From positions 1 to 60,332 of the IMG/VR virus record IMGVR_UViG_3300043772_002998: a stretch of 60,332 nucleotides of DNA. One strand, written 5' to 3'. Positions 9,697-59,826 of the stretch are shown here, in pieces (positions within the stretch are counted from its first letter, which is position 1; every line of letters starts with the position of its first letter). A model generated the notes under the pieces. That model did no database searches. It had not been told where the DNA came from and saw only the letters and a list, made by a program, of their open reading frames with translations. Both the position numbers and the translations under genes were made by a program. Source of the DNA: a virus.

Positions 9697-10151
9697 GCCA
9701 CGGTCGTGATGTCATCCACCATCGTAAAAACTTCAATGCTCAGCGGTTGGCCAGGCGATAGGGTTTGATCCTCTGGCAGCATCGGCAGGATGCCCGCCAC
9801 GATGGTGTCCCATGTGGTGGTCCCGCCGCTGACGGTGCCGAGCACAAGGTAAGCCGTATCAAACTGCAGCCCCAGCCCGCCGGAGCTGGCCTGGAAGGTT
9901 GAGAGATTGCCGGTGCCCACCACCATGCCTTGGGTGGAGCTGTAGGCCCCTGCAGGTAGCGTCCATTCCACCCGGGCGTAACCGTTGCTGGCTTGGCTGC
10001 TGATCTCCACCGCGTCCCATTGTGCGGTGGTCGAGTCTTTGGTGAGCGAGGCAGAATTGATCGCCAGGCATAGCCGCGCCTTACGGCCCTGATAGGCGAC
10101 GGCATGAACGCGAAGCAGCTCCGCGTTACTCCACTGCATTGCCAATGTCAC
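9693..10151 (-). CDS. Tail-region beta protein
   Basis: A 152-residue beta-rich protein. It could start at GTG 10151, overlapping the previous stop, or at ATG 10139 (MQWSNAELLRV). It lies between two tail genes in one operon and is probably a minor tail component by position. Confidence 0.65.
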   Translation of the reverse strand: MTLAMQWSNAELLRVHAVAYQGRKARLCLAINSASLTKDSTTAQWDAVEISSQASNGYARVEWTLPAGAYSSTQGMVVGTGNLSTFQASSGGLGLQFDTAYLVLGTVSGGTTTWDTIVAGILPMLPEDQTLSPGQPLSIEVFTMVDDITTVA

Positions 10152-10849
10152 AGGATCACCCCCTTCATGGTTGACGTAAAGGCGCCATTTGCCGGATCAA
10201 AGGCCACGTTATAGACCCCTCCCGGGCCAACAGTTACGGTCTCTGGCATGATGAGCTTTCCGGTCGTTACCGCTTGGCTGGTGACGGTGGTAGAATACGC
10301 TACTGTAATATCAAATGTGTTCGTGGTGACGTTGGCGATAGTGAAGGTGCCATTCATCCACCAGAACGGCAGCTGATCAATCACCACCACGCTGCCATTC
10401 GCCATCCCGTGGGCGGCCTTGGTGAGCGTAGCGGTAACGCTGGTTTGCGCTACATTCGTGATGGATACCTGCCCAGCACTGGAGCTGAATAGGCAGCCGA
10501 TCACGTTCTTACCAATGGCGGTACTGTTGTAAAACACCAGCGACTTGAAGGCAAACCCGCTACCGCTTGCCGATAGCGTCGGGATGAATGACGGATTGAA
10601 CCGGTACGTTCCGCCTTGCCATGTTGCAGGTTCCGTGACGCTGACGTTCACCCCCCCAAGCGTGTAGCCGTTCCCATTCGCCACCTGCGTAACGTCTGAC
10701 AGCACCGTATGGGACTGGATCAGCGGTACGTTAGTGGTTAGCGCCATCTTGACCACATGCACCCCGAGGGCATGGATTCCACGGGACATGGCCGCCGGGA
10801 CGAAGGCATGAAACGGGATGAACCCGCAGGTTCTGGTTACGGTGGTCAT
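10148..10849 (-). CDS. Tail protein with inserted Ig-like domain
   Basis: A 233-residue protein. Its N-terminal half (FVPAAMSRGIHALGVHVVKMALTT, then VLSDVTQVANGNGY) resembles a widespread phage tail family with the pattern GxHxLGxDxxKxAL. The middle (about residues 130-200) is a beta domain of the form SITNVAQTSVTATLTKAAHGMANGSVV. That domain recurs in the major tail protein. ATG 10849 is only 14 bases after a GGAAAGCTAAGGG motif, whose AAGGG may also serve as ribosome-binding site. Confidence 0.7.
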   Translation of the reverse strand: MTTVTRTCGFIPFHAFVPAAMSRGIHALGVHVVKMALTTNVPLIQSHTVLSDVTQVANGNGYTLGGVNVSVTEPATWQGGTYRFNPSFIPTLSASGSGFAFKSLVFYNSTAIGKNVIGCLFSSSAGQVSITNVAQTSVTATLTKAAHGMANGSVVVIDQLPFWWMNGTFTIANVTTNTFDITVAYSTTVTSQAVTTGKLIMPETVTVGPGGVYNVAFDPANGAFTSTMKGVIL

Positions 10850-10853
10850 GCCC

Positions 10854-10863
10854 TTAGCTTTCC
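10854..10863 (-). promoter_or_regulatory. GGAAAGCTAA motif overlapping ribosome-binding site
   Basis: GGAAAGCTAAGGG fills the 15-base gap between two tail genes on the minus strand. At 14 bases from ATG 10849 it is the closest copy to a start. Here it may act mainly as ribosome-binding site. Confidence 0.4.
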
Positions 10864-10864
10864 G

Positions 10865-13732
10865 TCAGGGGTTGGGATATGGCGCCGTCGGTGGCGTGAA
10901 GTTCGCATCCACCACCCGGCCGGGCTCTACCACTACATCGTCAATGTAGCCGGGGAAGATGGCTGCGTATTGATCAGCGCCGCCAACCTGTACGGTAGTG
11001 GTGGTGATGTTTGCAGTACTTGTCGGGCCGGTAATAACATAATCATCGGTGCTCTTGACGCCATTGACGAATACCCTGACGGTTTGCGCTTCCTTGCTCA
11101 CCAGAACATGGGTCCATGTCTCGGTTGGGATGGCATTGCTCAGGGCCTCGGGGGTAAAGTTGTCGTCAAACCAGCCGACGTTCCATTCGCTGTTGTAGTT
11201 GACGACGCCAAGCGCTGAGCTGTAGCCAACGCCAAACTGGGCAATCATGTGCTCGGTGTTGGTGTCGCCGCTGTTGATCCGGATCCATGCCTGCATGGTC
11301 CAGTTGCCGACACCCATTGCCAGCCCTGCACCGGTGGCGGTCACAAAGCCGTCAAAGGCATCAAACTCAGCCGCCGCCCCGCCGAACTTGGATTGCGCGG
11401 TGCTGATTGCAGCATTGCCGCTGGCAACGACCGGGTAGGCGTTGGCGCTGCTATCGACGAAACCGGGCCCGTCGAAGTGCAGGATCAGGGCGGCGGCATT
11501 GCCGAACCCGCCCACCTGGGTGAGGGTTGCCGGATTGGTGGTGATGGTCGCGCTGCTGCCGGTGCCGATCAGGTGGATCCGGCGACCCATGCCGCCCACG
11601 CGGACGCCACCGGCCACCTGGAGGGTCTTTGGCAGCCAGCGTTGCAGCCGCGCCCGAGCGCCAACCCTGGCCCCTCCACGGGCCTGCAGGATGGTGTTAT
11701 ACGGCGCCACAAACCGCGTGGGGGTGATGGTCGCCCGGGGGATCGGCGCCAGTCCCGAGGGGAGCGCCGCGAACAATGCCGACAGGTTGGGGGCCAACGG
11801 ATTAAACCCGGCCGGGATCGCCATGGCATTCGGCGGCCGTGGGTTGGGGTTGGTGGTCACGGCGGCGGCAGCCGGCAGGGTGGTCACCCCAGGCGGCAGG
11901 GGGAAGAATGCCTTGCTGGCGTCGCCATCGACTGCAGCCCAGAACATCGCATCGGTCGTACAGCGGATCCCATCGGCGGCCATTGACCACGTGCAGCCGT
12001 TGACGCGATAGGCCCCGGTGGCGCCATTGATTCGCAGATACAGCACGTCCATGGGCTTAGCGGGTAGGTCCATGGGGTGGAGCTGCAGCCCCTGCCCGTT
12101 GCGGTTGCCGAGTAGAAGGCGGTTCTCGCCCGTGGCGAAGGCTTGCGCCTCTCGATCTGCAAAGCTCTTGATAACCCGATACGCTGGCGGGTTACCTGTC
12201 TTTACCACAATGTCATCGCTGACGTAAGGAGGCGAAAGCTCCACGGCGGCTTCGCTTGCGGGTGAACCCATCGCAAAGACGACCGATGAAACGCTTTCTA
12301 CCGATGGTGAGTTGGCGGATGGATCTTTCGCCAGCGCAGTGGCATTCCGCTCCTGCTGCTTAGGCCGAACCTGCAACCCAAACTCTCGTTCGGTGCGGAT
12401 TCGGGTCTGGCTGCCGTAGCCCACGAGCCGGCCAGCGGCGGCCTCAATAGTTTTCAATGGCTCTCCGTTATCCCTCAGCTTAGCGATTGCGTCTGCGCCA
12501 AATGGCGTGTTGACATATTGAGTTGCATTGCGCGTTGCCGTTCTCGTGATGCCAGACGCCTTGTCTTTATCGTAATAGGTGACACGCCATCCAGTTGTTA
12601 TGGTGCCAACCTGCCTGAATGTCTTGGCATGTGGCCCATTGGCGCCACACGTGGCAAGCAGATCGCCTCTTGGCCCCCATTCCGTAACCCGCTCTTCCCT
12701 CACGTCTGCGGTATCGCCTTCGCCGTCGGCGTTGGCTGCATAGATAAATGTTGTCAGCGTCTCGCGGGTGCCGTTCAGCGTGCTTGACAGCTCACGTCGT
12801 TCGCTAACCCGGTCTTTTGCGTCATAGCTCGTGACCGTAAGGCTGTAATCGTTATATGTGATGTATTCCTTTATTGACTGTCCGGCTTCGTCCGTGTAGG
12901 TATGAATGGCCTGCACGGGGGCACCAAAGACGACTTCCTTTTCCCAGTTGCGCTTTTTGACCTTCTCTTCATCTTCAGTGCCTGGTGTCGGATTCCCGTT
13001 TTCATCTACTTGGTCTGGTTCACGTAGCTTTAGGCTTGAGTACCTAGCAAAGACCGCATCCCCTGGCAGGTCGCCCACGTTCACGGGTGTCATTTCCAGA
13101 AGCTGCCCGTTCGTCAGCAATGGGCCGGGACCTATTGGGTTGCCGCGCTTGCGGATGAACTCAACCTGCTCTGATTCGTTAACCCAGGCGAAGTACCCTT
13201 CGCTATGCGCGATCTTGCCTAGTTCTTCCACGTAGCCGCCGGACATATCCCATTCGTCTACAACCCGCTTGATCAGAAAAGGGAATCCATTTGCGGATGG
13301 GATTTGCAGTTTTGATAGGATTTTTGCCGCCACCCAAGCCGACGACATTGGCAACACAGCCACGCGACGATCAATTTCTGGCACGCTGCTATTCTCCTCC
13401 GTCTCTTTGAGCACCTCCACCGGCGGTTTGCGGTTGCTGTGATACGTCAGCAAACACCCCGCGCTGATCGTGGTGATGTTCTGCAACGGATCCACCTGAC
13501 TGGATAGCACCCGCAGCCGCCGCGGCACCCGGGCGATCCAGTTCGCGCCATCGGAATACGCCAGGCTGATCGGCGACCCTGCGGCGGGCCTATAGGTGCC
13601 GGTGAGCGTGATCGTAGCCTTCGTGAGGCACAGCCCCTGCCCCTGTACGTGGTCTTCCTGGATCGTGACCGGCGACCGGGGGTCAACCGGCCCAAGGCTG
13701 CAGAACACCCAATGGCGCAGGTCCAGGCTCAT
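10865..13732 (-). CDS. Tail tip hub protein fused to a LamG domain
   Basis: A 955-residue protein. The N-terminal 350 residues have the order of phage tail hub or gp27-like proteins: a beta domain, then KILSKLQIPSANGFPF and YVEELGKIAHSEGYFAWVNE, a common hub motif. A proline-rich linker near residue 640 leads to a C-terminal LamG/concanavalin-like domain (about residues 740-950: ALILHFDGPGFVDSS, GNWTMQAWIRI). The latter probably binds carbohydrate. It follows the distal tail protein gene with a four-base overlap. Confidence 0.8.
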   Translation of the reverse strand: MSLDLRHWVFCSLGPVDPRSPVTIQEDHVQGQGLCLTKATITLTGTYRPAAGSPISLAYSDGANWIARVPRRLRVLSSQVDPLQNITTISAGCLLTYHSNRKPPVEVLKETEENSSVPEIDRRVAVLPMSSAWVAAKILSKLQIPSANGFPFLIKRVVDEWDMSGGYVEELGKIAHSEGYFAWVNESEQVEFIRKRGNPIGPGPLLTNGQLLEMTPVNVGDLPGDAVFARYSSLKLREPDQVDENGNPTPGTEDEEKVKKRNWEKEVVFGAPVQAIHTYTDEAGQSIKEYITYNDYSLTVTSYDAKDRVSERRELSSTLNGTRETLTTFIYAANADGEGDTADVREERVTEWGPRGDLLATCGANGPHAKTFRQVGTITTGWRVTYYDKDKASGITRTATRNATQYVNTPFGADAIAKLRDNGEPLKTIEAAAGRLVGYGSQTRIRTEREFGLQVRPKQQERNATALAKDPSANSPSVESVSSVVFAMGSPASEAAVELSPPYVSDDIVVKTGNPPAYRVIKSFADREAQAFATGENRLLLGNRNGQGLQLHPMDLPAKPMDVLYLRINGATGAYRVNGCTWSMAADGIRCTTDAMFWAAVDGDASKAFFPLPPGVTTLPAAAAVTTNPNPRPPNAMAIPAGFNPLAPNLSALFAALPSGLAPIPRATITPTRFVAPYNTILQARGGARVGARARLQRWLPKTLQVAGGVRVGGMGRRIHLIGTGSSATITTNPATLTQVGGFGNAAALILHFDGPGFVDSSANAYPVVASGNAAISTAQSKFGGAAAEFDAFDGFVTATGAGLAMGVGNWTMQAWIRINSGDTNTEHMIAQFGVGYSSALGVVNYNSEWNVGWFDDNFTPEALSNAIPTETWTHVLVSKEAQTVRVFVNGVKSTDDYVITGPTSTANITTTTVQVGGADQYAAIFPGYIDDVVVEPGRVVDANFTPPTAPYPNP

Positions 13733-27372: not shown

Positions 27373-28365
27373 CTAGACACCTAACCCCAGTTGCTCCACC
27401 ACTTCCGCCAGCTTCTCACCATCGACACCAGCGGCAGCCGCCATCCGCCGGGGCCGCTTGCTGCCGCCGATGCCGCGCTCTACCGAAAAGCCAAGCGGCG
27501 CCAGCTCTGCCTCTCCCCGCACCTGATGCCGACCGATGGCACCCTTGACGTGAACCGCGAATTGCCCGAGCGGTAGGCCCGGCACATGCCGCCGCTTGCC
27601 ATTCCAGCCGGCGACAATGGCATCCCGATCGCCGGGCTCCATCCGGTGCCATGCCCGCGTCGCAAGGTCATACAGGCCATTCAGCTCTGCGGCATCCTCG
27701 AACTCCTGATCTTCCAATACCTGGCCATTGCGCACCCGCGGTTCAGAGTCCAACCCAAGCACTTCATCCCAGTGCTTGAATTGCCGGCTGACGTGGAGCA
27801 TCTCGCGCACGTCCGCTTCCGTCAGAATCGCGCTACTGCTGCCAGCCCTTGCGCCAACCTCCTCCACGATCTCAGCCGCGCTCTTGCCGCTTTGCGCCAG
27901 CTTCCGCACCTTCGGCATGTACTCCCGCCAGCTGTGCGGGAACTTCACGGCATAGCCATAGTCCCGGATCCATTGCTTAATGGTGCCGACGATCTTCGGC
28001 ACCGCATGGGTTGAGAACTTATTGCCCCGGGATGGATCGAAGGTACGGGCAGCTTTGATCAGGCCCCACACGGCGGCATCGTGTAGGTCTTCCGCGGAAA
28101 ACTTGGTCTTGAAGCCCATCTGACGGGCAAATGACCGCGCCAGGTCCAGGTTGTTGACGATCAGTGCGTCGGACTCCGGCGTGCGTTTCGGCAGCCCATA
28201 GGCGTCTGTGGCGTCCGCATCCTCGGGGCTGGCATCATCCGCCAACTCAACCGGCGGCAGGTCTTCCGCGCCCTCCTGGGCCTCCACCGGGGGCGCCTCC
28301 ACCGCAGCCAATGCCGCCCGCCCGCTACGGCGCCCCCTGCCCCTCGGCGTTGCCGTTGCCGTCAC
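27373..28365 (-). CDS. Phage sigma factor, group 3 SigF/SigB-like
   Basis: A 330-residue protein. After an Ala/Pro/Glu-rich N-terminus (1-60), residues about 65-135 are sigma-70 region 2: EDLHDAAVWGLIKAARTFDP, then FSTHAVPKIVGTIKQWIRD. The AVPxIVGxIKxWxRD and following FPHSWREYMPKVRK pattern is that of SigB/SigF-type group 3 sigma factors, not the housekeeping type. Region 4 (LPLGQFAVHVKGAIGRHQVRGEAEL) is recognisable but degenerate. It overlaps terL by four bases and precedes portal. I infer it redirects host RNA polymerase to phage late promoters. Confidence 0.85.
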   Translation of the reverse strand: MTATATPRGRGRRSGRAALAAVEAPPVEAQEGAEDLPPVELADDASPEDADATDAYGLPKRTPESDALIVNNLDLARSFARQMGFKTKFSAEDLHDAAVWGLIKAARTFDPSRGNKFSTHAVPKIVGTIKQWIRDYGYAVKFPHSWREYMPKVRKLAQSGKSAAEIVEEVGARAGSSSAILTEADVREMLHVSRQFKHWDEVLGLDSEPRVRNGQVLEDQEFEDAAELNGLYDLATRAWHRMEPGDRDAIVAGWNGKRRHVPGLPLGQFAVHVKGAIGRHQVRGEAELAPLGFSVERGIGGSKRPRRMAAAAGVDGEKLAEVVEQLGLGV

Positions 28366-36092: not shown

Positions 36093-36602
36093 TCAGCCCC
36101 TTGATTGCTGGACGGTGGCGTCGCCTTGGTACCGCCCAGTCTCCGCATAGCTGCGTCGCGGGTCGGCATCCATCGGGTGGAACACCAGCTGGCCAATCAA
36201 CAGCCCCGGCCAGATCGGCACCGGCCGCGACTGCCGGACGTTCTTCAGCTCCAGGGTCAACACCCCCTCGAAGCCGGGATCAATCCAGCCCGCCAGAAGG
36301 TGCTGTAGGCCCTCCCGTGCGCGGCTGGACTTGAGCGCGAACTGGGCCGATAGGGTCGGCGGGATCGCCAGCCGGGCCGCTGTGTGGGCCAGCACGAACT
36401 GACCAGGCGACAGCAGGTAGGGACGGGTGGGGCTGTGATTTGACAGCGGGTAGGGGACCATCGCGTCACTTACCACCGACTCAATCAGGATCGAATCCCC
36501 CAGCCGCACATCCAGCGACGCGGGGTTGACTAGCTCAGGCTCAAAGGGTTCCACCATGCCGGCGAGGGCAAGGTTGGTGATTTGGAAGTCAGCGAGAGGC
36601 AT
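36093..36602 (-). CDS. dcd: dCTP deaminase
   Basis: A 169-residue protein of the dCTP deaminase/dUTPase fold. Visible family motifs are NPASLDVRLGDSI, LKSSRAREGL, AGWIDPGFEGVLTLEL (catalytic Glu in the last part) and GLLIGQLVFHPMD followed by GRYQGD. It converts dCTP to dUTP, feeding dTTP synthesis and keeping dUTP in balance during phage replication. Some family members also hydrolyse dUTP to dUMP. Length fits a slightly short member. Confidence 0.9.
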   Translation of the reverse strand: MPLADFQITNLALAGMVEPFEPELVNPASLDVRLGDSILIESVVSDAMVPYPLSNHSPTRPYLLSPGQFVLAHTAARLAIPPTLSAQFALKSSRAREGLQHLLAGWIDPGFEGVLTLELKNVRQSRPVPIWPGLLIGQLVFHPMDADPRRSYAETGRYQGDATVQQSRG

Positions 36603-51114: not shown

Positions 51115-51321
51115 ATGCCCGAAAACATGAACATCGGTAACAGCATCAATGATACGAACGATGACGGTTTTCCTATGGTATGGTTCCCACCGCGTCCCGT
51201 CTTGGATGCCTTAGGAATCGCCGCTGAATACCAGCCGGCGTGTGGAACCGGCAGCTTACTCACCCATGCGGCTGGTTTCATCCTGTCCAACCCACCATTC
51301 GCCCCAGATCGTCGCCCATGA
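51115..51321 (+). CDS. Small protein upstream of the haloperoxidase
   Basis: 68 residues (MNIGNSINDTNDDGFPMVWF, HAAGFILSNPPFAPDRRP). Its stop overlaps the haloperoxidase start (ATGA), so the two are translated together. The end NPPF is reminiscent of a methyltransferase motif IV, but no AdoMet domain is present. Function unknown. Confidence 0.6.
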   Translation: MPENMNIGNSINDTNDDGFPMVWFPPRPVLDALGIAAEYQPACGTGSLLTHAAGFILSNPPFAPDRRP

Positions 51322-52589
51322 CCGCCACCCCAGCCCCGGAGGGCTTCAAGTTCAGTAAGGGGCATGACCCCACCAGTCTCAACGCCGCCTTGGCAATCAA
51401 GGATCGGAACCAGCGGCAAGCGGCCGTCAACAAGCTCACCCTAAAGGGTGGTCGCAAGCTGGTGTCGCCGCAGGCTGGCGTCATGGTAACCGGCGACTCG
51501 CCGGTGCCGGGCAGCCCGGAAAACATGAGCCCCCGGACGGCAGCTGAGCTTGCGGAGCTGGGCTTGCGGTTCCTGCTCGCCGACGTGCCCCTCTCTGAGC
51601 TGGCAAACCATCCAATCGCCATCCGTGGCGCCCAGATGCTCAAGGAGTTCGGCATCCCCCGGATGCTCTACGGCGAGGGCCCAGACGGCCTGTTCCGCAT
51701 GAATGCTGAGCGGGTGGGCGCCGATCGCGTGGGGCGCATCTCGGGGGCCTGGATCCCAACCGGATGGGGTGAACCGTTCTCGTTCCACGCCTACCGCCGA
51801 CTGGGGGCGTACGGGACCACGGAAGCCGAGTGGAAGGCCCTGCAGGACGGCAACATCCCGCGGCGGCAGGAAATGTCGCCCTGCACCATGCCGATTACTA
51901 CGGGCCGGGATATTGCCAGCCTCGCGCACCAAGACCCCCCGATCTCGATTGGGGATTGCGTCACGCGGATCCTGTTGGCGCACAATGCCAAGTTCTCCAC
52001 CCGTGCGCCGCTGACGCCAAACGAACAGGCGTTTGTGTCGCCCGGTGGGGTTTGGGAAATGCAATGCGCCAACGGCATTGCAGCGCTGCCCGCAGGCCAG
52101 ATCGGCTGGCGCCTCAAGGCTCGGGACTATCGCCGCGCCCGGCCGGAGGAACTGTGGCCGATGGCGGTCCGCGGCGAGCTGCACGAGTCATTCCTGCGGC
52201 TTGCCGGCTGGCTGGTGGACCTCGTGGGCCCCTACCTGCCCCTCGGCTATGCGGAGGGCTGCCCGCTCCATTCGGATGACCCCTCGGGCCATGCCATTTC
52301 CGCTGGCGTGTGGATCACCCTGTGCAAAGCCTGGTTCGCCGATGGTCCGGTGCCGTCGCTGAGCATCCAGAACCTGCACGCAGAAATTGATCTGATGGGC
52401 TGGCATCAGGCCGATGGTCGAGCATGGGCACGAATCCACACCCGCCGGAGCCTTACCGCTGGACTGCGGATCGGTGAGCAGCATGCCTTGGCATACCTGC
52501 GGCAGCAGAATGCCACGAGCCCGCAACCGCTGGGCGCGACCTCGTTTATCGGGGTGGATGGCAAGCTCATTGAACTGGAAGGAACCTGA
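51318..52589 (+). CDS. Vanadium-dependent haloperoxidase (bromoperoxidase type)
   Basis: 423 residues from ATG 51318. All vanadate-binding positions of the family can be placed: Lys267 and Arg275 (KARDYRRARPEE, the eight-residue step seen in bromoperoxidases), His318, Ser323-Gly324-His325 (HSDDPSGH), Arg368 and His374 (RAWARIH). His318 is the position that is Phe in fungal chloroperoxidase. Regions before (GGRKLVSPQAG, GRDIASLAHQD) and after (LRIGEQHALAYL, VDGKLIEL) also follow algal and cyanobacterial enzymes. The Asp four residues after the last His is Ser here. It would oxidise bromide or iodide with hydrogen peroxide to hypohalous acid. No signal peptide is visible. Confidence 0.88.
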   Translation: MTATPAPEGFKFSKGHDPTSLNAALAIKDRNQRQAAVNKLTLKGGRKLVSPQAGVMVTGDSPVPGSPENMSPRTAAELAELGLRFLLADVPLSELANHPIAIRGAQMLKEFGIPRMLYGEGPDGLFRMNAERVGADRVGRISGAWIPTGWGEPFSFHAYRRLGAYGTTEAEWKALQDGNIPRRQEMSPCTMPITTGRDIASLAHQDPPISIGDCVTRILLAHNAKFSTRAPLTPNEQAFVSPGGVWEMQCANGIAALPAGQIGWRLKARDYRRARPEELWPMAVRGELHESFLRLAGWLVDLVGPYLPLGYAEGCPLHSDDPSGHAISAGVWITLCKAWFADGPVPSLSIQNLHAEIDLMGWHQADGRAWARIHTRRSLTAGLRIGEQHALAYLRQQNATSPQPLGATSFIGVDGKLIELEGT

Positions 52590-52598
52590 ACCGGGACC

Positions 52599-52619
52599 GG
52601 GGGGCTGCGGCCCCCCTTT
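52599..52619 (+). terminator. Terminator after haloperoxidase
   Basis: GGGGGGC-tgcg-GCCCCCC followed by TTTC. Confidence 0.75.
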
Positions 52620-52626
52620 CCTGCGG

Positions 52627-52962
52627 TCAGTTGCTCATGCCGAGCTTCTGCATGACGCGTGCATTGAACGCCTCAAGGCTATTCAGCCGGGCATCCTGCT
52701 CCTTGTTGATCCTGTTGGTGTCTATGTGCTGCTGACACAGGACCTCAACTTTTTCGGTGAGCTTCGTGGTTTCCTTGGTGGATTCCGCGATCTTTTCCGC
52801 CAGCTTGGCGTTCTGATCCGCTAGCTTGCTGGATCCGGTCTGGTGGGTTTGCACCAGGATCGACAGCACGAGGCCAGCAAGGCCCACCACGGCCGGCGCC
52901 CACGTCTTCCAGGGGCTCTCCGGTGCGGCGTGAACGGTGGTGATGTTGCTGGTTTCGGGCAT
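52627..52962 (-). CDS. Membrane protein with long coiled coil
   Basis: 111 residues. One transmembrane helix (WAPAVVGLAGLVLSILVQT) is followed by a coiled coil (KLADQNAKLAEKIAESTKET, QDARLNSLEAFNARVMQ). It is convergent with the haloperoxidase gene and carries a late motif 51 bases upstream. Layout resembles small lysis accessories or tail-anchored proteins. Function unknown. Confidence 0.7.
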   Translation of the reverse strand: MPETSNITTVHAAPESPWKTWAPAVVGLAGLVLSILVQTHQTGSSKLADQNAKLAEKIAESTKETTKLTEKVEVLCQQHIDTNRINKEQDARLNSLEAFNARVMQKLGMSN

Positions 52963-53447: not shown

Positions 53448-53936
53448 ATGGAACGACTCACGGGAAAAGCCCTGCTGGCGCATTACAAGGCAGGGGTTGA
53501 AGCCTGCAAGCTGAAGGGCCACATCATTGCGGAAGCCGGGTACGTCAAGACCTTGCCGGACGGTAAGGAACGGATTGAGTATGCGAAGTTCAATGCCGCC
53601 CTGCTGGCCAGTAAGGGGCTGTCAATTGGCCGGAAGCCGGCAGGTCGCCGCGGCCGGGATCTGAGCTACCGGGCAACCGTGCTCAAGCCGGGCCATGCCG
53701 TGATCGGCCGCGGGTATCTGCGGCAGATCGGCGCTGAACCTGACAGCGTGTTGGCCATTGAGGTGCGCGGGCACAGGCTGATCATCCAGGTGGCTGACCC
53801 GGTGGACAACACGGCGCCCACGCCCTGCGAAACCGGTAACTGCCCGATGCCGGCCCCTGCCGCTGCCCCCGCGCCTGCGGTGGCTCCTGAAACCGCCGCC
53901 TGCGGTATCGCCGCGCCTGTCGCTACGGTCGCCTGA
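53448..53936 (+). CDS. Cyanobacterial AbrB-like transcription regulator (cyAbrB)
   Basis: 162 residues. Residues 1-115 follow cyAbrB proteins along their length: LTGKALLAHYKAG, then KLKGHIIAEAGYV, EYAKFNAALLASKGLSIG, and the C-terminal DNA-binding part RGRDLSYRATVLKPGHAVIG, GYLRQIGAEPDSVLAIEVRG. An Ala/Pro-rich tail is added after residue 120. cyAbrB regulates carbon and nitrogen genes and coats DNA in cyanobacteria. A phage copy could retune host transcription or bind phage DNA. A TTGACG lies at 53412 as possible -35. Confidence 0.88.
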   Translation: MERLTGKALLAHYKAGVEACKLKGHIIAEAGYVKTLPDGKERIEYAKFNAALLASKGLSIGRKPAGRRGRDLSYRATVLKPGHAVIGRGYLRQIGAEPDSVLAIEVRGHRLIIQVADPVDNTAPTPCETGNCPMPAPAAAPAPAVAPETAACGIAAPVATVA

Positions 53937-59100: not shown

Positions 59101-59826
59101 CTACTGGGGCCGCACATCCAGCGCCCACCCGGTGGCGGGGCCGTCAGCTTCCCAGCGGCGGCCCCAGTTTTTCCGGCTGTAGTGGATGCCGGCGCCGTTG
59201 CTGTGGTTGACGTAGCCGCCGCCGATCAGATCGGCTTCGCCGTTGGGGTCGTTGTGGATCCAGTCGGTGGGGGTGCAGCCGATCACCACGGTCCAATGGC
59301 CGCCGATCTTCTTGATACTCGTGATGGGCCCCTGGTGGAACCAGCCGACGGGCACGGGCCGGCCCGCGGCCAGGGCGCCCTCAAGGAATGCCGGGGTGCA
59401 GTTCGTCACCAGCCTGGCGGAGAGGCCCAGATGGCGCAGGGTGGCAATCTGCGCGTTGGCGTCGGTGGTATCGCCGAACTTGGCGCGGATCTTGTTGTAG
59501 GCATCGTCTGAGCCGATCTTCCCGTAGAACGCCGCGACCATGGCGCAGCTGCTGCTGAAGCACTCGCGATAGCCGGTGCCGCTGGCGTTGTCGTTCTGGC
59601 TGAAGTAGGGCACCCGCAGGACCGTGGGTGTCGGCTGCTTGCCGCCCGTGCTCCAGGTGGCGAACCACGACTCAGAGCGGCGCATCACATCGACGTAGGG
59701 CCTGCCCTTCATCAGTTCCGCCTCAAGCTCCACGATGGCGGCATCCTGCCGGGCGGCGGCCTCGGTGCCTGCGGCGGCCTTGTATCGCCAGAGCTGCTGG
59801 AAGGTGATCGGTGCTGGATTCGTCAT
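59101..59826 (-). CDS. Putative endolysin, C39-like cysteine peptidase
   Basis: 241 residues. A helical N-terminal part of 70 residues comes first. Next is VPYFSQNDNASGTGYRECFS then SSCAMVAAFYGKI, where the catalytic Cys lies in the CxxxxCAM segment as in C39-like peptidases of phage lysins. GGHWTVVIGCTPTDWIHNDP supplies the His and Asp of the triad. It probably cuts peptidoglycan peptides at the end of infection. It overlaps the holin-like gene upstream by four bases. Confidence 0.75.
   Translation of the reverse strand: MTNPAPITFQQLWRYKAAAGTEAAARQDAAIVELEAELMKGRPYVDVMRRSESWFATWSTGGKQPTPTVLRVPYFSQNDNASGTGYRECFSSSCAMVAAFYGKIGSDDAYNKIRAKFGDTTDANAQIATLRHLGLSARLVTNCTPAFLEGALAAGRPVPVGWFHQGPITSIKKIGGHWTVVIGCTPTDWIHNDPNGEADLIGGGYVNHSNGAGIHYSRKNWGRRWEADGPATGWALDVRPQ

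Follow-up and report, generated by a model that had tools for sequence, protein, structure and literature searches.

The DNA analysed here, referred to as the window, is a viral record of 60,332 nucleotides from IMG/VR (IMGVR_UViG_3300043772_002998). It encodes TerL, portal, minor head, tape measure and tail genes, together with RecT, a DUF3799 nuclease, a dCTP deaminase-like protein, cyAbrB and a C39-type endolysin, and is the genome of a genuine tailed phage. Among portals, those of cyanophages S-CBS2, S-CRES and PSS2 come closest to the one encoded here (38%), and among 14 control genomes cyAbrB occurs in Synechococcus elongatus only. Owing to this portal affinity and the presence of cyAbrB, the host is probably a cyanobacterium. 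In PHROGs, a gene between terminase and portal (27373-28365, minus strand) matches RNA polymerase sigma factors at E = 4e-24. The genes discussed below are:

36093-36602, minus strand: dCTP deaminase-like gene, common to all four haloperoxidase-carrying phage types
51115-51321, plus strand: upstream ORF of 68 amino acids, overlapping the haloperoxidase start by ATGA
51318-52589, plus strand: vanadium haloperoxidase (VHPO) gene of vanadium bromoperoxidase (VBPO) type, 423 amino acids, ATG start, TGA stop
52627-52962, minus strand: convergent gene with a transmembrane segment and a coiled coil, weakly Rz-spanin-like
53448-53936, plus strand: cyAbrB-type regulator (PF14250), a marker of a cyanobacterial host
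59101-59826, minus strand: C39-like endolysin, with homologues near the haloperoxidase in contigs G020 and L084

In L084, the haloperoxidase also lies close upstream of the dCTP deaminase-like gene.

The haloperoxidase ORF is intact, and its coordinates and each residue named in an earlier sequence-only reading of the window (K267, R275, H318, S323-G324-H325, R368, H374 and S378) were as that reading gave them. The open frame extends further 5′, opening at 51240. Homologues from other phages start with MPLKPFAKGHD, MNLVFSKGYD and MTSKPFSKGHD, which line up with the first residues of the window protein (MTATPAPEGFKFSKGHD); given this common landmark, 51318 is the likely start. The window protein lacks an N-terminal extension of the type found in cellular relatives as well as their conserved N-terminal positions, and no secretion signal or targeting sequence was recognised in it.

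The surroundings of the gene differ in part from those first described. Of the proposed two-gene unit, the ATGA overlap stands, but the upstream ORF carries methyltransferase-like motifs, PACGTGS (motif I-like) and NPPF, nearly fused, and looks like a deleted methyltransferase remnant or a mini-gene; phage G002 has a similarly compact stretch (56% over 51 amino acids). The proposed terminator is weak: a terminator scan found no such site behind the haloperoxidase gene, and only three T come after the GC-rich hairpin at about 52597-52619. The supposed adjacency to cyAbrB is equally loose, as that gene starts 0.86 kb downstream, past at least one opposite-strand ORF, and stands elsewhere in the relative G020. 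A chimeric assembly was considered and rejected, since the gene has comparable neighbours in related phages and resembles the contig in GC content.

Family membership was assessed by sequence, profile and structure. Searched alone against PDB sequences with phmmer, the window protein gave meaningful scores for VBPOs only (best E = 2.8e-8); a profile built from the four phage proteins brought VBPOs to E = 3.1e-30, with no other family scoring appreciably. No Pfam family, PAP2 included, and no NCBIfam or PHROG family matched the window protein, even at E = 10. An AlphaFold2 model built on a 54-row alignment had a fairly confident overall fold (pLDDT 76, pTM 0.84). The 12 best PDB matches of this model in Foldseek were all VBPOs (E = 1e-11 to 1e-14, TMq 0.66-0.80), among them the helical VHPO fold of 1QI9 (TMq 0.78, E = 1.4e-14). 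Next came bacterial iodo- and chloroperoxidases at E = 0.03 and then acid phosphatases, the first of them at E = 0.13. The three approaches agree and confirm the predicted product as a member of the VBPO family, bearing out, together with the first-shell residues below, the proposal of a bromoperoxidase-type haloperoxidase in a phage. A chance resemblance is ruled out by the two E values from sequence and profile and by the selective retention of ligand residues.

The phage protein shares its fold with the VBPOs of Ascophyllum nodosum (1QI9, 5AA6), Corallina (1QHB, 1UP8) and Acaryochloris marina (5LPC), as well as the order and local spacing of the vanadate site, with SGH or a variant of it, Arg at K+8 and the equivalent of His318. 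It is shorter (423 amino acids compared with PDB chains of 556-666), is 17-22% identical overall, and differs in lacking the conserved N-terminal elements and in having Ser rather than Asp after the ligand His. Alignment with these enzymes places the following residues, all on the plus strand:

52107-52109: Trp264 codon, at K minus 3, the position tied to halide specificity; every phage and viral homologue has Trp here
52116-52118: Lys267, predicted vanadate-binding Lys
52140-52142: Arg275, at K+8 as in VBPO
52269-52271: His318, second-shell His (Corallina His478)
52284-52292: Ser323-Gly324-His325, predicted vanadate-binding SGH
52419-52421: Arg368, predicted vanadate-binding Arg
52437-52439: His374, axial vanadium ligand by homology (Corallina His551)
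52449-52451: Ser378, replacing the Asp of cellular VHPOs, Ser in four of four phage-clade proteins

All eight vanadate-site residues stand at VBPO spacing (R275 at K267+8, SGH starting at H318+5, H374 at R368+6) and are common to three independent phage homologues that are 53, 43 and 37% identical to the window protein. The equivalents of K267, R275, H318, G324, R368 and H374 are invariant in 73 bacterial relatives; the exceptions are the S323 position, which is often Ala, and H325, kept in 70 of the 73. Overall, the phage proteins have their ligand residues in common with almost every one of about 80 cellular proteins. The four phage proteins keep 35 of 80 family-conserved columns and all seven testable, broadly conserved ligand positions (P of about 0.002), so that constraint is, by this alignment, concentrated on the predicted catalytic site, while other family-conserved positions have drifted, the second shell included. 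Superposition of the predicted fold implies that the ligands would converge on one pocket.

The second shell is where the phage proteins depart from their relatives. At H374+4, 80 of 81 aligned cellular relatives have Asp, the single exception being a misaligned row, and all four phage-clade proteins have Ser. The window protein thus lacks a trait of its cellular relatives, which we treat as variant and not as defining because this Asp makes no vanadate contact itself. In PAP2 enzymes, Asp at this position hydrogen-bonds the active His. Since the Ser is common to all four phage proteins, Ser378 is an inherited feature of the clade. The sequence-only reading, which had already noticed the Ser, had called the vanadate site complete; this holds for the ligands, all of which are present, but not for the second shell. 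Vanadate binding may be weakened by the substitution, and Ser378 could partly stand in for Asp. A clade-wide change from Asp to Ser amounts to a natural experiment on the role of that residue in vanadium enzymes.

His318 had also been taken to favour bromo- over chloroperoxidase activity. This does not follow: the equivalent residue is His in 73 of 73 aligned bacterial relatives and, being universal, does not discriminate halide type within that set. According to a recent study (PMC11871015), the residue at K minus 3 is Arg in the Corallina and A. marina bromoperoxidases, and the A. nodosum and Curvularia enzymes, which chlorinate, have Trp. The phage Trp264 resembles the latter. Substitution in C. 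pilulifera (R397W/F) raised chlorination, whereas R425W in A. marina hardly altered it (PMC11871015). The halide preference of the window enzyme therefore cannot be called from its sequence.

The 54-row alignment search of viral contigs recovered the clade; a single-protein search and a search with the A1 query matched nothing in these contigs. Besides the window, the clade is carried by five contigs of 2.9 million. Contig G020 (60,277 bases, terminase 69% identical) encodes a haloperoxidase at 53% identity, directly followed by the counterpart of the convergent membrane/coiled-coil gene, as in the window, and then by an endolysin. Three other contigs carry a 43% homologue, nearly identical in all, and one a 37% homologue; the longer contigs with these homologues have tail and RecT genes, and L081 a lysozyme. 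The gene is open in all carriers. In-frame TGA recoding in G021-G023 was considered and rejected, as the TGA is a normal stop at the end of the match. Between the window and G020 genes, pN/pS is 0.51, with synonymous sites near saturation. No haloperoxidase copy was seen in G002 and G005, incomplete contigs that are closer terminase relatives of the window, and the gene may therefore be accessory. Between L081 and L083 (about 10000-11630), the haloperoxidase differs by 1 nucleotide, while other shared parts are mostly 83-97% identical, which suggests recent exchange or a sweep at the locus.

Cellular VHPOs of bacteria, archaea and cyanobacteria (L002-L080, L137-L148) belong to the same family (full-length tblastn matches, E down to 3e-24) and share the ligands. 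They differ from the phage protein in having Asp at the position of S378, are 24-30% identical to it, and generally extend further at the N-terminus, in some cases with Tat-like signals. We built an unrooted tree of 98 proteins (18 viral and 80 cellular rows), in which the phage branches are long. The four phage proteins form one distinct clade (support 100), within which no cellular protein is nested, and join ten other viral proteins (support 97, starred). A branch with a support of 93 (not starred) separates all 18 viral rows from the 80 cellular rows, suggesting that the viral proteins may represent a single ancient VHPO lineage of viruses. Of 390 cyanobacterial genomes, 92 encode VHPOs. 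Recent acquisition of the phage gene from a cyanobacterial host was rejected, as the cyanobacterial VHPOs included in the tree all lie away from the phage clade.

The ten other viral proteins (IMG/VR contigs L085-L093 and L098) have 512-532 amino acids and Asp or Glu at the S378 position, and their contigs are T4-like, podo-like or from large phages. Hallmarks include a terminase in L087, a phage DNA polymerase in L085 and a head maturation protease in L090; L094-L097, with no phage hallmark in the few genes tried, were not counted as phages. In L091 and its kin, the haloperoxidase is preceded by genes for a portal and a major head protein, both T4-like. In L091 (9326-10924), and also in L098 and L093, this different VHPO lies just downstream of the portal, protease, scaffold and major head genes, a position that suggests late expression or virion association in these T4-like contigs.

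We consider it moderately probable that the window gene encodes a compact vanadium-dependent haloperoxidase of a cyanobacterial tailed phage that performs peroxide and halide chemistry during infection. By homology, vanadate would be held among Lys267, Arg275, Ser323, Gly324 and Arg368, with His374 as the axial ligand. Hydrogen peroxide would bind to give a peroxovanadate, activated by Lys267 and His325, which would yield hypohalous acid by oxidising bromide or iodide and perhaps also chloride. The hypohalite would react with organic compounds or, where no organic acceptor is present, with a second hydrogen peroxide, so that the enzyme could also work as a halide-assisted catalase. As no secretion signal is apparent, the protein would most likely act in the cytoplasm of the infected cell, or be released at lysis. 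The benefit we favour is peroxide handling: such chemistry would serve a phage infecting an oxygen-evolving, light-driven host.

The same fold could instead belong to a protein without efficient haloperoxidase activity, an apo-VHPO-like phosphatase or phosphotransferase whose site is kept for phosphate. VHPOs and PAP2 enzymes do share an oxyanion site, and Ser378 departs from the cellular VHPOs. Yet PAP2 phosphatases require the very same Asp (motif HxxxD), so its loss counts at least as strongly against a phosphatase. The PAP2 motif reads KX6RP - PSGH - SRX5HX3D, and its K-to-R spacing, like that of fungal VCPO, is +7; the window protein has +8, keeps the VBPO-type His318, has Ser for the final Asp, and matches neither Pfam PAP2 nor, at E below 0.1, any phosphatase fold. 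These differences from class A acid phosphatases and PAP2 make a phosphatase unlikely. We give similarly little credence to a biosynthetic, NapH-like haloperoxidase that acts on one specific organic substrate without free hypohalite, whether to produce a halogenated signal or to alter some molecule of the host or the phage. Substrate-specific VHPOs of this kind are known (PMC8407142), and the second-shell drift of the phage clade could mean a new substrate pocket; however, no biosynthetic neighbour genes were recognised, and the nearest structures are free-hypohalite VBPOs and not NapH-type enzymes.

Gene position bears on whether the protein is an oxidant generator associated with lysis or the virion, made late or packaged, that, once released, would damage competitors, nearby cells or the host envelope. 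The L091 gene sits in a structural module, flanked by the T4-like major head protein on one side and a large protein of unknown function on the other, and the G020 gene adjoins the membrane/coiled-coil gene and endolysin. The window gene, by contrast, lies on the strand opposite to the structural genes, beside recombination genes, and its product has no recognised targeting sequence; we regard this role as improbable. Long branches, the loss of many family-conserved residues and the rarity of the clade might also indicate a decaying or passenger gene, functionless in the window phage. Against this stand the open frame in every carrier, the preferential retention of catalytic residues (P = 0.002), the pN/pS value and a Ser378 common across lineages, and decay is very unlikely. 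Tentatively, and as a possibility we rate well below the haloperoxidase assignment itself, phages may own an old VHPO lineage apart from all cellular ones. One of its sub-clades would then have rebuilt the second shell, with Ser for Asp, to serve infection in a dedicated way, for instance by removing peroxide with the help of halide or by releasing a burst of oxidant at lysis.

The earlier reading, which knew of no characterised phage enzyme of this kind, agrees with our searches: tblastn of three viral haloperoxidases against 50,697 catalogued phage records gave no match, PHROGs contained no match to the phage haloperoxidases, and no phage haloperoxidase was found in the literature searched. 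Within these collections and this literature, the window protein would be without precedent as a vanadium haloperoxidase of a phage. It would offer viruses of photosynthetic bacteria a direct way to act on hydrogen peroxide and halogen chemistry, and its compactness makes it a candidate minimal haloperoxidase. VirX1 of cyanophage Syn10 is likewise a halogenating enzyme of a cyanophage, but a flavin-dependent halogenase (PMC8407142) of an unrelated family that does not use vanadate and hydrogen peroxide. Among viral structure predictions (BFVD), full-length matches came from giant viruses of eukaryotes only (E of about 4e-16). These proteins, from Hokovirus (A0A1V0SGK0), Yasminevirus (A0A5K0U6L7) and Sylvanvirus (A0A3G5AI90), are annotated as PAP2 or uncharacterised and, judging by their predicted folds, may be VHPOs.
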